Source: Pelotomaculum sp. (GTDB taxonomy: Bacteria; Bacillota; Desulfotomaculia; Desulfotomaculales; Pelotomaculaceae). From it: a DNA stretch of 64,000 bases. Shown here one piece after another: positions 241-63,436 of this stretch. A model generated the notes under the pieces. The model had not been told where the DNA came from. It did no database searches and was given only the letters and a program-made list of their open reading frames with translations. The stretch is from the NCBI GenBank assembly GCA_018435055.1, contig JAHDOA010000008.1, forward strand, positions 1 through 64,000, read 5' to 3'. Made by a program: the position numbers and the translations under genes. The stretch's first letter is position 1, and each line of letters opens with the position of its first letter.

Positions 241-281
241 AAAAAAAGGACAAAGTCAAGCTCTTTAAGCTAGCTCTGTCC
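241..281 (-). terminator. Rho-independent terminator, expression platform of the upstream riboswitch
   Basis: On the minus strand an 8-bp stem (274-281 with 248-255, one G-U pair) with a further AGCT/AGCT pairing in the loop is followed directly by seven U residues (241-247). It lies just after the riboswitch-like aptamer and about 150 bases before the start codon at 95, the arrangement expected of a transcription-terminating riboswitch. Confidence 0.7.
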
Positions 282-385
282 CCCTTTCCGCAATGGGAGG
301 CACTGCAGTTTCCCACGGCACCCTGACGTCCAGGCAACCTTACATTCAAATTTAGGCTTGCATGGCTCGGAGAACTTTGGTATTT
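282..385 (-). promoter_or_regulatory. Probable molybdenum cofactor (Moco/Tuco) riboswitch aptamer
   Basis: Read on the minus strand, the segment contains CTCCGAGCC (364-372), then a GGTTGCC element, a small CCTGGACGTCAGG hairpin, and GTGGGAAAC followed by GCCTCCC. This order and these short conserved strings match my memory of the Moco RNA motif found upstream of Mo-enzyme, Mo-cofactor and Mo-transport genes. A U-tract terminator follows immediately. I could not define the closing P1 stem with certainty. The call rests on remembered consensus, not on a covariance search. Confidence 0.5.
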
Positions 386-2766: not shown

Positions 2767-5448
2767 TCACTGCAGCGTACTGACGATAGGAGTTGTACCA
2801 GGTTGAATTCCTATTGTTGAATACACAGTTTCATCTTCCACTACAACTTTATCCCCGGTATACGATTTACGCAGGATCTCCTCCAGCTCGCTGATCAAAG
2901 GCAGGCGCGGGTTGGTGGTTGTGGTCTGATCTGCAAAGACCTTTTCCGCTAGTTCCGGGATCTTGGACATAAATTCTTCCCGGTCTATACCCAGCTCGGC
3001 AAAGGTGGCCGGTATCCCCAGGGACCGGCTTAAACCGGAGACCGCCTCGATCAGGCTGTGTACACCCTCTTCCTGTGTCGCGGCGGGCAGGCCCAGGTGG
3101 GCGGCAATCTGCCGGTATTTTTCCGGCGCGATGTATTGCTCGTATTTCGGAAAAGAAACAAACTTGCTGGGCAATCCGGCGTTGTACTCTATAACATAAG
3201 GCAGCAGTACGGCATTTGCCCGCCCGTGGGTGACGGCGAACTCTCCCCCCACTTTGTGGGCCAGGGCATGGTTGATACCCAGAAAAGCGTTGGTAAAGGC
3301 CATCCCGGCTATAGCGGAAGCATTATGCATCTTTTCGCGGGCTGTCTGATCTTTTTCGCGCCAGGAAAGCGGCAGGTGGCTAAAAACCAGCTCAATAGCC
3401 TTTAAGCAAAGGGCGTCTGTGTAATCAGAGGCCATCACTGAAACATAAGCCTCTATGCCGTGCGCCAGCACGTCCATGCCGGTGTCGGCCGCCAGGCTGC
3501 GGGGGAGTGTCTCCACAAAGTCCGGGTCGATGATGGCCACGTCCGGCGTCAGTTCATAGTCCGCCAGTGGGTATTTGATATCTTTCCCCCTGTCGGTTAT
3601 TACCGCGAAGGCTGTTACCTCGGAGCCGCTCCCGCTGGTAGTGGGTATGGCCACCAGCTTGGCCCGGCGGCCCAATTTGGGGAATTTATAAGTGCGCTTG
3701 CGAATATCCAGAAACTTGAGCCGCAAAAACTCAAACTCTACCTCAGGATGTTCATAAAAAAGCCACATCCCCTTGGCCGTGTCTATGGCGGAACCGCCGC
3801 CCAGAGCGATAATGGTGTCCGGCTGAAAAGTGTTCATTAATTTGAGTCCTTTTGTCACCAGGGCCAGGGAAGGGTCTGGCACAACTTCACTGAACACCTC
3901 TATTGCCGGCCTGTTTTCCCTCCTGGCCAGATGGTATTTGATCTTATCCAGGTACCCCAGTTCAACCATTGATTTGTCTGTCACGACCAGCGCCTTCTCG
4001 ATCCCGGGCATCTTGGCCAGATACCGGATGGAGCCTCTCTCAAAATAAATTCTTTCCGGCACCCTGAACCACTGCATGTTCACCTGCCTCCTGGCCACCC
4101 TTTTAATATTGAGCAGGTTGACGGCGCTGACATTGGCCGTGGTGGCGTTTCTGCCGTAGGAGCCGCAGCCCAGGGTGAGCGAAGGCATATTGGTGTTGTA
4201 AATATCACCGATGGCGCCGTGGGTGGAAGGCGCGTTGACGATAATCCGGCCGGCCATAACCCTGCGGGCAAACTCGTCTACCAGCCTTTCATCAGCCGTA
4301 TGGATCACCGCCGAGTGCCCCATCCCGCCGTACTCCACCATTTTTTCGCACAATTTGATGCCTTCACCCGGATTGTCCGCCAGATAATAGGCTAAAACCG
4401 GGCTCAGCTTTTCCCTCGACAGCGGGTAATCCGGACCTACTCCGTCCTGCCTGGCTATGAGTATTTTGGTCCCCGCCGGCGCCGCAAAACCGGCCATTTG
4501 GGCAATCGCGCCTGCTGTCTTGCCCACTATTTCCGGGTTCAAGGAACAGGTCTTTCCGCAAGTGGCGAACTGTTCCAGCAATTCCGCTTCATTTTTATTC
4601 AGAAAATAGCAGCCGTTCTCAACCAATAGGGACTCTACTTCTCCGGCCACATCCCTGTCCACAATTAAACCCTGCTCCGAGGCGCAGATCATACCGTTAT
4701 CAAAAGTCTTGCTCAGGATCAGGTCCGTAACCGCCCGGCCCAGGTTGGCGGACTTCTCAATATAACATGGTACGTTGCCCGGCCCCACACCAAGGGCGGG
4801 CTTGCCGCAGCTATAAGCGGACCGGACCATGCCCGCCCCCCCCGTAGCCAGGATGAGAGATACTCCCGGGTGGGCCATCAATAGTTTTGTTGCTTCAATA
4901 GAAGTTTGTTCAATCCAGCTGATGCAGTTTTCAGGCGCGCCGGCTTTTGTCGCCGCGTCCAGCATTATTTTGGCCGCCGCAGCGCTGCACCGCTGCGCTC
5001 CCGGATGGAAGCTGAAGATAATCGGGTTCCTTGTTTTTATAGAAATCAGGGACTTGAACATAGTGGTTGAAGTGGGGTTGGTCACCGGTGTAATCCCTGC
5101 TATTACTCCGACTGGTTCCGCCACCTCTTCGTATTCATCTTCCTCGTCAACCTTAATAGTCCCTACGGTCTTGTTGTACTTGATACTGTGGTAAACATAG
5201 TCCGTGGCAAAAATATTCTTCACAATTTTATCTTCGTAAACTCCCCGGCCTGTTTCTTCTATAGCCATCCCGGCCAGATCCATGTGCCGGTCAAGTCCGG
5301 CCAGGGCCATGGCCTTGACGATCCTGTCCACATCTTTCTGACCCATTTCCATAAATTTATGCAAAGCCCCCTGGGCTTTTGCCGCCAGGTTATCGATAAT
5401 ATCCCTGCTGCCATTTTCGGTATTTTTCTCCATATCCTGTGTCAACAA
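2767..5448 (-). CDS. adhE: Bifunctional acetaldehyde-CoA/alcohol dehydrogenase
   Basis: About 893 residues. The N-terminal half is a CoA-acylating aldehyde dehydrogenase: the segment around AVEETGRG-like IEETGRGVYEDK and the catalytic Cys in GMICASEQ are present. The C-terminal half is an iron-dependent alcohol dehydrogenase with GGGSAIDTAKG for NAD binding and metal-ligand His residues in HGIEAY, INHALAHKVGG and THGRAN. It converts acetyl-CoA to ethanol or the reverse, cycling NADH. The start is uncertain: TTG at 5448 has AGGAG eight bases upstream; the longest frame begins at another TTG (5496) with no clear ribosome site. nadE follows within 100 bases. Confidence 0.93.
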   Translation of the reverse strand: MLTQDMEKNTENGSRDIIDNLAAKAQGALHKFMEMGQKDVDRIVKAMALAGLDRHMDLAGMAIEETGRGVYEDKIVKNIFATDYVYHSIKYNKTVGTIKVDEEDEYEEVAEPVGVIAGITPVTNPTSTTMFKSLISIKTRNPIIFSFHPGAQRCSAAAAKIMLDAATKAGAPENCISWIEQTSIEATKLLMAHPGVSLILATGGAGMVRSAYSCGKPALGVGPGNVPCYIEKSANLGRAVTDLILSKTFDNGMICASEQGLIVDRDVAGEVESLLVENGCYFLNKNEAELLEQFATCGKTCSLNPEIVGKTAGAIAQMAGFAAPAGTKILIARQDGVGPDYPLSREKLSPVLAYYLADNPGEGIKLCEKMVEYGGMGHSAVIHTADERLVDEFARRVMAGRIIVNAPSTHGAIGDIYNTNMPSLTLGCGSYGRNATTANVSAVNLLNIKRVARRQVNMQWFRVPERIYFERGSIRYLAKMPGIEKALVVTDKSMVELGYLDKIKYHLARRENRPAIEVFSEVVPDPSLALVTKGLKLMNTFQPDTIIALGGGSAIDTAKGMWLFYEHPEVEFEFLRLKFLDIRKRTYKFPKLGRRAKLVAIPTTSGSGSEVTAFAVITDRGKDIKYPLADYELTPDVAIIDPDFVETLPRSLAADTGMDVLAHGIEAYVSVMASDYTDALCLKAIELVFSHLPLSWREKDQTAREKMHNASAIAGMAFTNAFLGINHALAHKVGGEFAVTHGRANAVLLPYVIEYNAGLPSKFVSFPKYEQYIAPEKYRQIAAHLGLPAATQEEGVHSLIEAVSGLSRSLGIPATFAELGIDREEFMSKIPELAEKVFADQTTTTNPRLPLISELEEILRKSYTGDKVVVEDETVYSTIGIQPGTTPIVSTLQ

Positions 5449-7334: not shown

Positions 7335-7404
7335 CATGTGGATCAACCTGGCTATTGACACGGCAATCCCCAAAATGACATAATAAAGATGGAAATAAAT
7401 ACCT

Positions 7405-7502
7405 GGGGAGAGTGTCGGGAACACAGCGCGGTCCGGAACCCGCTATACGGTTCGACTCCGTGTCTCCCCAAAGAAAGGAAGCCCTGGCTTTTAGCTGGGG
7501 CT
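7405..7502 (+). ncRNA. Compact tRNA-like cloverleaf (66 nt) followed by a hairpin
   Basis: Positions 7405-7470 fold on paper as a cloverleaf. There is a perfect 7-bp acceptor stem (7405-7411 with 7463-7469), a 4-bp arm with a 5-nt loop (7412-7424), an arm with a bulged C and a 7-nt loop TCCGGAA (7425-7444), and a T-like arm with loop TTCGACT (7447-7461). The loop would place CGG as anticodon, but base 33 is C rather than U, there is no GG in the D loop, and 66 nt is shorter than any normal tRNA. A 9-bp hairpin (7480-7502) follows with only a weak T tract. It may be a tRNA-like RNA, a decayed tRNA or a leader structure. Confidence 0.4.
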
Positions 7503-7810
7503 CTCCGTATTTTCCGGCAGATAACAGCCATGGGCTGCGCGCCACACATTCATTTCATTATATCTTATAGTACCGCAAAAAAAAACATAATTCGCAGCGG
7601 GTCCCCGGTTGAAAGCAATACGGGTTTTCAATGTAAGATATTAACAATGCCTTAAAATAACTCTTTTGTGTCAAAGCAGCTGAAAAGACCATATTTTGTA
7701 TTATAAAAATTGTAAATAACTACTGCGTTTTGAAAGGGGGAATAGGGTTAATTCCAGGGGTTTTTGAATGGGACTTCCCCGTTCAATGACAACGAAAGGG
7801 GGGGTTTTTT

Positions 7811-8101
7811 TTGCACTGGCGGCTGTTTTTTTCCGCTCTGGGTATAGTTTTCTTATCAGAGATGGGGGATAAAACCCAGATCACCACTATGCTGTTGGCC
7901 GGCACAAAGCCGCTATATGTTTTTTATGTCGCGCTTGGTTCAGCTATGGCTTTAATAACTGCGTCCTTTATTGAAGTAATGATCGGGGCGCACTTTCTTG
8001 CCAAACACATAAAACCCGTTACAATCAAAATTATTTCAGGGGCAGCCTTTACCCTCATGGGTCTTCTACTGATTACTGGTGTAATCGGCAACGATTTCTA
8101 A
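7811..8101 (+). CDS. UPF0016/GDT1-family cation exporter, first half-size subunit
   Basis: 96 residues with about three membrane helices and one copy of the family signature E-x-G-D-K-T (SEMGDKTQ, residues 17-24). Full-length GDT1/MntX-type exporters carry two such motifs in one chain; here the second is encoded by the next gene. Together they probably form a heteromeric Mn2+ (or Ca2+) exporter in the cytoplasmic membrane. The start is TTG at 7811 after a long purine ribosome site (AAAGGGGGGG). The next gene starts 24 bases after the stop. Confidence 0.85.
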   Translation: MHWRLFFSALGIVFLSEMGDKTQITTMLLAGTKPLYVFYVALGSAMALITASFIEVMIGAHFLAKHIKPVTIKIISGAAFTLMGLLLITGVIGNDF

Positions 8102-8124
8102 TTTCCGCAAGGGAGATCTACCTA

Positions 8125-8493
8125 ATGCTTAGTATGGAATTGCTAACATGGATTACCACCTACACGCTGATCATTCTGTGTGAACTGGGAGACAAAACCC
8201 AGTTGGCGGTGCTGCTGCTGGCCAGCAACAACCCCACCAGGCGCTGGTTGATCATGGCCGCCAGCGCTATAGCGCTAACGGCATGTGTCCTGCTGGAGGT
8301 TACCGCAGGCGCATTAATTGCCAGGTATATTAGTCCGGGTATGATCAACCAGGGAACAGGCGTAATTTTCTTGTTGATTGGGGTGATTACCCTGGCCGGA
8401 CAGGCGGGCGCCAACCGCAAGGCGCGCATTGAGAAAACCAGCACACGGCAGGAAGATTTATCTATATTAAAATCTTGTGAAAAGAAGGTTTAA
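8125..8493 (+). CDS. UPF0016/GDT1-family cation exporter, second half-size subunit
   Basis: 122 residues with three hydrophobic helices and the signature CELGDKTQ, the second half of a GDT1-type exporter. A charged tail of about 30 residues follows the last helix. The start ATG at 8125 has GGGAG nine bases upstream. A terminator overlaps the stop codon, so the two genes form a complete two-gene transcript. The family is known for Mn2+ export, and yybP-ykoY riboswitches often control it. The riboswitch next door is on the opposite strand (see 8546-8648). Confidence 0.85.
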   Translation: MLSMELLTWITTYTLIILCELGDKTQLAVLLLASNNPTRRWLIMAASAIALTACVLLEVTAGALIARYISPGMINQGTGVIFLLIGVITLAGQAGANRKARIEKTSTRQEDLSILKSCEKKV

Positions 8494-8507
8494 ATACCTT
8501 CTTTTTT
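8483..8507 (+). terminator. Terminator after the UPF0016 pair
   Basis: AAGAAGGT (8483-8490) pairs with ACCTTCTT (8495-8502) and is followed by T residues. The loop contains the stop codon of the second exporter gene. Confidence 0.8.
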
Positions 8508-8519
8508 GCCGGGCTAAGC

Positions 8520-8554
8520 AAAAAAACCTTTACTCCACCTTATGAAGTAAAGGT
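8520..8554 (-). terminator. Terminator of the manganese riboswitch
   Basis: On the minus strand ACCTTTACT (8546-8554) pairs with AGTAAAGGT (8526-8534) and seven U residues follow. The 5' arm of this hairpin is also the 3' strand of the riboswitch P1 helix, so ligand binding and termination exclude each other, as in known Mn2+-activated switches. Confidence 0.85.
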
Positions 8555-8648
8555 CTCGCTTCCAGGCTACGCCCGTTATAAGACCGGGTGATGAACACCA
8601 GCATGTCGATCTTATTGCTTAAGGGTTTAAGCAAGCTACTCCCCTTTA
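8546..8648 (-). promoter_or_regulatory. yybP-ykoY manganese riboswitch, minus strand, no gene downstream
   Basis: On the minus strand the element starts TAAAGGGGAGTAGC, continues with ATAAGATCGACAT, then CCGGTCTTAT (pairing with ATAAGA), and ends GAAGCGAGACCTTTA. These are the conserved parts of the yybP-ykoY motif, including the GGGGAGUAG start and the GAGACCUUU end that closes P1. A competing terminator follows. The nearest genes on this strand lie more than 1.2 kb away (the ECF sigma gene). The expected targets, the UPF0016 exporters, run the other way and converge on it. Confidence 0.85.
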
Positions 8649-8839
8649 ATAAGTATTCTGTTACCTCATGATATTCCATCATATCCTGCCATGTGCATAT
8701 GTTTTGATCCGTTTCAAATATTTTTTATGTATACAGTATTATCAGAAAATTTAAATAATTCTGATTGCCAAATAATAGTGAGGCCTGGTATTATATATAT
8801 ACACATTAAAGTTTTTACCTCGCGAAAGGGGGTAAAAAT

Positions 8840-9190
8840 ATGCATCCATTATCGATATATGAATATGAATTTTTGTACGGGCACAGAATGGCGACAGTTT
8901 TTAAATTAAACGGGAGCATAAAAATAATCGGTTTTATCAAAGGAAATACTTTTGAACTAAGGGTCTTAACAATTGGCAATAATCCCCGCAGAAAAGGCCT
9001 GGGGAAAATGGCCTTGCAATTTTTAAGGCCCAAATTTAAAAAAATAACTGTGACGGAAATTTGTAAAGAAGCCCTGCCATTTTGGTTAAAAATGAAGGAG
9101 TACGGACTTGTAGATAAACTATGCACCATAAAAGACGGGAGGACCCTATATTTAATCAAGCGCACCACGAAACTGGGTAAAGTGGGTTAA
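8840..9190 (+). CDS. Small GNAT-like acetyltransferase
   Basis: 116 residues. The segment [16 protein letters not shown] (about 49-64) resembles the acetyl-CoA-binding motif A of GNAT enzymes (R-x-x-G-x-G/A). The later [12 protein letters not shown] resembles the region where these proteins place a side chain near the cofactor. The N-terminus is shorter than in most GNATs, so substrate and activity are unknown. A good ribosome site (AAAGGGGG) precedes ATG 8840. It converges with alr, the two stop codons overlapping by four bases. Confidence 0.6.
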
Positions 9191-63238: not shown

Positions 63239-63264
63239 TGTTGCGCAAACTTCCGCATTCTTTA

Positions 63265-63345
63265 ATCCCTACGCTGGCATTACCCAGATCAGGTCAGTGG
63301 GTCAGAATAAGTTCTTTCTCAGCCGAATCTCTTCAGCTCCCCTGT
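63265..63345 (-). promoter_or_regulatory. Thiamine pyrophosphate (TPP) riboswitch
   Basis: On the minus strand the thi-box elements appear in order: GGGGAGCTGA, GGCTGAGA, ACCTGATCTGGGTAATGCCAGCGTAGGGA (split here as CTGATCTGGGTAATGCC and AGCGTAGGGA). This is the standard TPP aptamer. It precedes the thiamine-binding/transport/ThiN genes and should switch them off when TPP is plentiful. Confidence 0.95.
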
Positions 63346-63436
63346 ACGTATTATATTGTCCTTTGATTATCTGTCTATAGAATATATGCAATTACATAAT
63401 TTATCAACATGTTATTTGCCCTTAAAGCCAATATCG

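Follow-up and report, generated by a model that had tools for sequence, protein, structure and literature searches.

Results

A Mn2+ riboswitch oriented towards a pair of GDT1 genes

The window analysed here is a stretch of 64,000 nucleotides from Pelotomaculum sp. (contig JAHDOA010000008.1). It carries two adjacent genes for single-domain GDT1/UPF0016 proteins, gdtA and gdtB, and a yybP-ykoY riboswitch on the opposite strand that converges on them (Table 1). The initial annotation had proposed a complete yybP-ykoY aptamer on the minus strand, a competing U-tract terminator and convergence on GDT1/UPF0016 genes, and all three are borne out: RF00080 matches the minus strand only, the terminator overlaps the 3' strand of P1, and both plus-strand genes match PF01169.

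Table 1. Features of the gdtAB-riboswitch locus, in window coordinates.
Feature	Position	Strand	Basis and remarks
Lineage-specific segment, ~1.13 kb, with gdtA, gdtB and the convergent riboswitch	7593..8722		absent from G004, G005 and G002
gdtA leader	7593..7810	+	lacks the TTAG-N6-CTAA operator present in many other gdtAB leaders
gdtA, single-domain GDT1/UPF0016, 96 aa, TTG start, one EMGDKT motif	7811..8101	+	PF01169, E 7.8e-19
gdtB, single-domain GDT1/UPF0016, 122 aa, one ELGDKT motif	8125..8493	+	PF01169, E 2.3e-18
Terminator-like hairpin at gdtB end	8479..8507	+	fold; U6 tail on plus strand, weak U4 tail on minus strand
Intrinsic terminator of the expression platform	8523..8557	-	terminator scan and fold; shares GAGACCUUU with 3' strand of P1
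yybP-ykoY (Mn2+) riboswitch aptamer	8549..8647	-	R1 and RF00080 scores, fold with four-way junction, every invariant column retained
Weak promoter-like site for the riboswitch transcript, TGCACA-18-TATCAT, 9/12	8668..8697	-	consensus scan only

The RF00080 match spans 8656-8504 and scores 30.4 bits (E 5.5e-6 in the 2.2 kb searched); a genome-wide search returned the same aptamer at E 2.0e-6. Because this score falls under the Rfam gathering score of 45 bits, a default Rfam scan misses the element. Is that cut-off informative here? Across 60 related genomes, RF00080 gives a match at E <= 0.001 in 21 and exceeds the gathering cut-off in 4; it is a weak guide in this order, where most sense aptamers score below it. 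For a second model, R1, we took 25 aptamers from related genomes and left out the window copy. R1 places the window aptamer at 8647-8549 with 58.4 bits (E 2.5e-13), and detects aptamers in 70 of the 113 genomes of the order (E <= 0.001), many more than RF00080 does. The window also holds ordinary Moco (265-384, minus strand) and TPP (63249-63353, minus strand) riboswitches, both above the Rfam cut-offs.

The minimum-energy fold arranges P1, P2, P3/P3.1 and P4 around a four-way junction, both in the window and in a second genome, G094, described below. Every column that is invariant across 20 aligned aptamers is retained. L1 is the conserved GGGGAGUAG, and L3 is a loop of 7 nt, ACAUGCU (8606-8600). 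In the crystal structure of the Xanthomonas oryzae riboswitch, L3 reads ACAUACU and A48 is the Mn-sensing base (PMC6754395); its equivalent is kept at 8604, the predicted Mn-sensing A of the window aptamer. Sequence and fold confirm the element as an intact minus-strand yybP-ykoY aptamer that overlaps its terminator and converges on gdtAB, and we infer that it binds Mn2+. The other yybP-ykoY aptamer of the host genome (contig C5) precedes a CaCA exporter in the ordinary sense arrangement. We considered the window aptamer as a copy of this CaCA riboswitch and rejected the idea: the L3 types differ, and the window aptamer has no DNA match elsewhere in the genome.

The terminator consists of 16 pairs (8557-8523) followed by a U tract (-18.7 kcal/mol, z -6.5), and lies 30 nt from the gdtB stop. 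The hairpin at the end of gdtB folds at -12.5 kcal/mol on the plus strand versus -11.0 on the minus strand, where, with its weak U4 tail, it could stop much of the riboswitch read-through in the window. Promoter-like sites at the riboswitch are weak, and matches of such strength also arise by chance. What might this riboswitch control? The initial annotation had allowed for a missed gene directly downstream on the minus strand, and we found no recognisable gene and no Pfam match there before the closest same-strand gene, an ECF sigma gene (7258-6731) 1.2 kb away. The riboswitch is not followed by the same-strand transporter or manganese gene of a canonical cis-acting leader. It lies at the 3' end of a ligand-related gene and is transcribed against it, the placement of an antisense element.

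The gdtAB pair and its control elsewhere

The start of gdtA lies directly behind a G7T8 run (7797-7813, plus strand), and the TTG start is plausible; a change of +/-1 base in the run would join the upstream ATG frame, so that the run may be prone to slippage or reflect an assembly error. The region upstream of gdtA folds no better than its shuffles (z 0.23), and we found no structured leader there.

The pair is present in 9 of the 113 genomes of the order, twice with a convergent aptamer and never with a sense one. These half-length genes belong to another GDT1 subgroup than the full-length ones found behind sense aptamers. Upstream of other gdtAB pairs, TTAG-N6-CTAA palindromes occur 13 times against 0.18 expected, at 8 of 21 loci (L089, L090, L150-L152, L179-L181), often with a DtxR-family gene nearby; they are probable metal-regulator operators of gdtAB. 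The riboswitch loci of the window and G094 have neither such a site nor a nearby DtxR-family gene, and RNA control may replace protein control at these two loci. The initial annotation had called gdtAB the "expected exporter genes" of the riboswitch. The GDT1 family assignment stands; "expected" was too strong, as the half-length pair is a different subgroup, found elsewhere with DtxR-like operators or regulators.

Probable gain of the module in the window's lineage

Three congeners (G004, G005 and G002) have the same flanks as the window, namely the sigma gene, a conserved tRNA-like RNA, a small acetyltransferase-like ORF and alr, and lack segment 7593-8722. In G004 the sequence is contiguous across it: window positions 7592 and 8723 abut at G004 positions 4929/4930. 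We found no match to gdtB in any congener. The most likely history, given three congeners with matching flanks and no segment, is that the window's lineage acquired it as one unit in which the riboswitch already faced gdtAB; loss from the other congeners is possible and would need more events. Inspection of the insertion borders by eye revealed no target-site duplication or terminal repeats. A plasmid or viral origin of the module was considered and dropped, there being no match in plasmids or viral contigs.

The tRNA-like RNA in the left flank (7404-7506, plus strand; GGGGAGA...GGTTCGACTCC...TCTCCCC) appears to be a small RNA gene; a strong promoter-like site, TTGACA-18-CATAAT, lies at 7355-7384, and the gene has a terminator-like hairpin. 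Five relatives (G002, G004, G005, G007, G008) conserve it at this place, with the sigma gene on one side and the small ORF on the other, yet it received neither a tRNA call nor an Rfam match. The small ORF of the right flank (8840-9190) has a paralogue divergently upstream of an aptamer-CaCA operon in two genomes of other genera (L016 in G021, L018 in G018).

A second convergent module in another family

Searching the DNA of the order with the window segment led to G094, a genome in a single contig from another family. There, gdtA and gdtB (locus L178, 4381-5060, plus strand) converge on an aptamer at 5233-5127 on the minus strand (R1 57.3 bits, E 4.9e-13). Its terminator, of 19 pairs, overlaps P1 in the same design as in the window and lies 33 nt from the gdtB stop, and in both genomes gdtAB has its own plus-strand terminator. 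The flanks are unlike those of the window: a CadA-type ATPase gene on the left and the acetate kinase gene on the right. In the sister species G093 and G092, cadA adjoins ackA, with neither gdtAB nor an aptamer between them. By these sequence comparisons, the same module is at two unrelated sites in two families, both sites being empty in relatives. Along the sense path of the riboswitch, no recognised gene follows for more than 1 kb in the window or in G094; in the latter, the next same-strand gene is ribD, some 3.9 kb off and with its own FMN riboswitch ahead. A scan of genome contigs by back-translated patterns had missed G094, and more convergent cases may therefore exist.

How unusual is this arrangement? 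Leaving out the window and G094, we read the downstream gene of 42 aptamers of the order, and each is followed on its own strand by a transporter gene, an HtpX gene or what is left of such a gene. For 41 of them this is a gene close by, of the full-length GDT1, CaCA, TerC, HtpX or (L119) P-type ATPase kind; one GDT1 gene among these is visibly decayed (L125). Downstream of the remaining aptamer, L115 (at the site of L011), there is just a GDT1-like remnant. The aptamers L011 (G035) and L125 (G076), intact-looking and in sense ahead of decayed GDT1 genes, look like orphan riboswitches in the making.

The backward riboswitch looks selected

The aptamers of the window and G094 are reciprocal best matches among 44 distinct aptamers, identical at 74 of 97 aligned bases (76%); their match score is 105, the next best being 80-85, and they form a clade with a support of 0.976. 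The GdtAB proteins of the two genomes are 62% identical. The fourfold-degenerate sites of the genes agree at only 17 of 63 positions (27%), that is, they are saturated, yet the terminator stem and all invariant aptamer positions are retained. Because an unconstrained aptamer of such age should be unrecognisable, while core and switching terminator are both still in place, the riboswitch looks selected in its convergent orientation, an argument that draws on the two genomes with this arrangement. In the gdtAB tree, the two riboswitch-bearing pairs are not exclusive sisters, and G387, whose contig ends too early to show whether an aptamer adjoins gdtAB, falls between them. Had the aptamers of the two loci been joined to gdtAB on separate occasions, this orientation would have arisen twice, a further argument for function.

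Discussion

Could a riboswitch that turns transcription on serve to turn its neighbours down? We propose that the locus encodes a Mn2+ ON riboswitch that acts in antisense and reduces gdtAB at high Mn2+, a reading we hold with somewhat better than even confidence. A minus-strand transcript would start near 8660 and fold into the yybP-ykoY aptamer. At low Mn2+, the terminator would capture the 3' strand of P1, and transcription would end near 8523. At high Mn2+, the aptamer would hold P1, the terminator would fail, and RNA polymerase would read through, reaching the 3' end of gdtB within 30 nt and continuing through gdtA on the opposite strand. Collision, pairing of mRNA with antisense RNA, or both would then lower gdtAB, so that an ON riboswitch would be an OFF switch for the genes that face it, and genes and switch would travel as one module of about 1.1 kb. 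Promoter use, read-through, interference with gdtAB and the sign of that interference are all steps predicted from the arrangement. A distant relative shares this back-to-front arrangement, transplanted there as a unit, and the circuit, which would turn gdtAB down when manganese is plentiful, is therefore probably real. Of the two explanations in the initial annotation, its "Mn2+-controlled antisense switch" is now the better one, given that a second family carries the same convergent module and that the module has persisted beyond the saturation of synonymous sites.

A fall of gdtAB at high Mn2+, the sign predicted here, would be wrong for an exporter and right for an importer. Bacterial GDT1 exporters such as MneA are known to respond the other way; inward transport also occurs among GDT1 proteins, for example in CMT1, whose expression falls in Mn excess (PMC7380456). 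As the predicted sign does not fit a detoxifying exporter, the pair may transport in either direction. A further and more tentative proposal, which we consider possible though rather unlikely, is that the module is a transferable cassette in which convergence makes a Mn2+ ON riboswitch an OFF switch, replacing the DtxR/MntR-type control of other gdtAB pairs. If true, the half-length GDT1 pair would act when Mn2+ is scarce, for instance as a Mn2+ importer, contrary to its exporter label.

The convergence might instead be without regulatory meaning, the aptamer being an orphan that arrived alongside gdtAB by accident, having lost its exporter or never brought one. The order does contain sense aptamers before decayed GDT1 remnants (L011, L125), and an aptamer accompanies gdtAB in just two of the nine genomes that have the pair, and so is not essential to it. 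We nevertheless regard this as doubtful: another family has, at an unrelated site, the same convergent module with an aptamer from the same clade, and aptamer and terminator are intact despite saturated synonymous sites. Less probable still is that the product of the riboswitch is a short terminated RNA, or that its terminator insulates gdtAB from the next gene, in place of antisense transcription. The predicted terminated RNA of roughly 120-140 nt would be stable, and a second hairpin stands between switch and gdtB in the window, in keeping with such a role; an insulator would, however, be superfluous beside the plus-strand terminator that gdtAB has in both genomes, and a plain insulator would not retain a Mn2+-binding core.

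Inversion of the exporters away from a sense riboswitch, the other explanation in the initial annotation, is very improbable: full-length GDT1 genes of the order do carry sense yybP-ykoY aptamers, but none of the half-length gdtAB loci scanned has one, and the convergent order is common to two families. The comparison of related genomes that the annotation had suggested, for a varying exporter orientation, turned up no pair with a sense aptamer: no congener matches gdtB, and among the nine genomes of the order with the pair two have a convergent aptamer. Regulation of the ECF sigma operon, 1.2 kb away, by way of a long leader, akin to the long transcript suggested at the outset, is scarcely credible even though the sigma gene is the next real gene on that strand: congeners have the same sigma gene and upstream region without the module, so that control of the sigma gene predates the riboswitch, and in G094 the corresponding gene is the distant ribD behind its own riboswitch.

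Computed antisense riboswitches are hard to tell from accidents of rearrangement. Two distant copies at unrelated sites that are empty in relatives, next to genes with saturated synonymous sites, offer evolutionary evidence that selection keeps the backward orientation. The reading also makes a sharp prediction, that gdtAB falls rather than rises at high Mn2+, which would question the exporter label of paired GDT1 genes.

Comparison with known systems

Paired single-domain UPF0016/GDT1 proteins have been described as the products of two adjacent genes with one E-x-G-D-K-T motif each, expected to form an antiparallel heterodimer (PMC4067407). The window gdtA and gdtB represent this "pair" form. 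In the literature searched, we found no report of paired single-domain GDT1 genes with a Mn2+ riboswitch, nor of a conserved, transferable Mn2+/gdtAB module. Antisense-acting riboswitches as such, yybP-ykoY included, are already known or predicted. PMC9943018 gives only two as previously described, a SAM riboswitch behind ubiG-mccBA in Clostridium acetobutylicum and a cobalamin riboswitch behind pocR in Listeria, and adds computed cases, five of them yybP-ykoY, with one at a Mn2+ transporter gene of Carboxydocella. Judged against that survey, what is new here is a conserved, transferred module with paired GDT1 genes, together with evidence of selection on the backward switch; overlap with the Carboxydocella case is possible.

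In its L1 GGGGAGUAG, the invariant A of L3 and the four-way junction, the window riboswitch resembles the yybP-ykoY ON riboswitch of the Lactococcus lactis type (PMC6754395, PMC11087558). In the transcriptional ON riboswitch of Lactococcus, the P1 switch helix overlaps the terminator (PMC11087558), and the window terminator likewise uses the 3' strand of P1. It differs from canonical yybP-ykoY elements in facing the antisense strand of its neighbour genes. With the antisense-acting riboswitches, as described in PMC9943018, it shares the position at a 3' end, transcription against the neighbour and a reversal of the usual sign; lowering of the target by collision or duplex formation has been proposed there for other members of the group. 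The SAM and cobalamin cases terminate at high ligand, whereas the window has an ON riboswitch with a half-length GDT1 pair, and, in contrast to those cases, its module occurs as one unit in two families at sites unrelated to each other.
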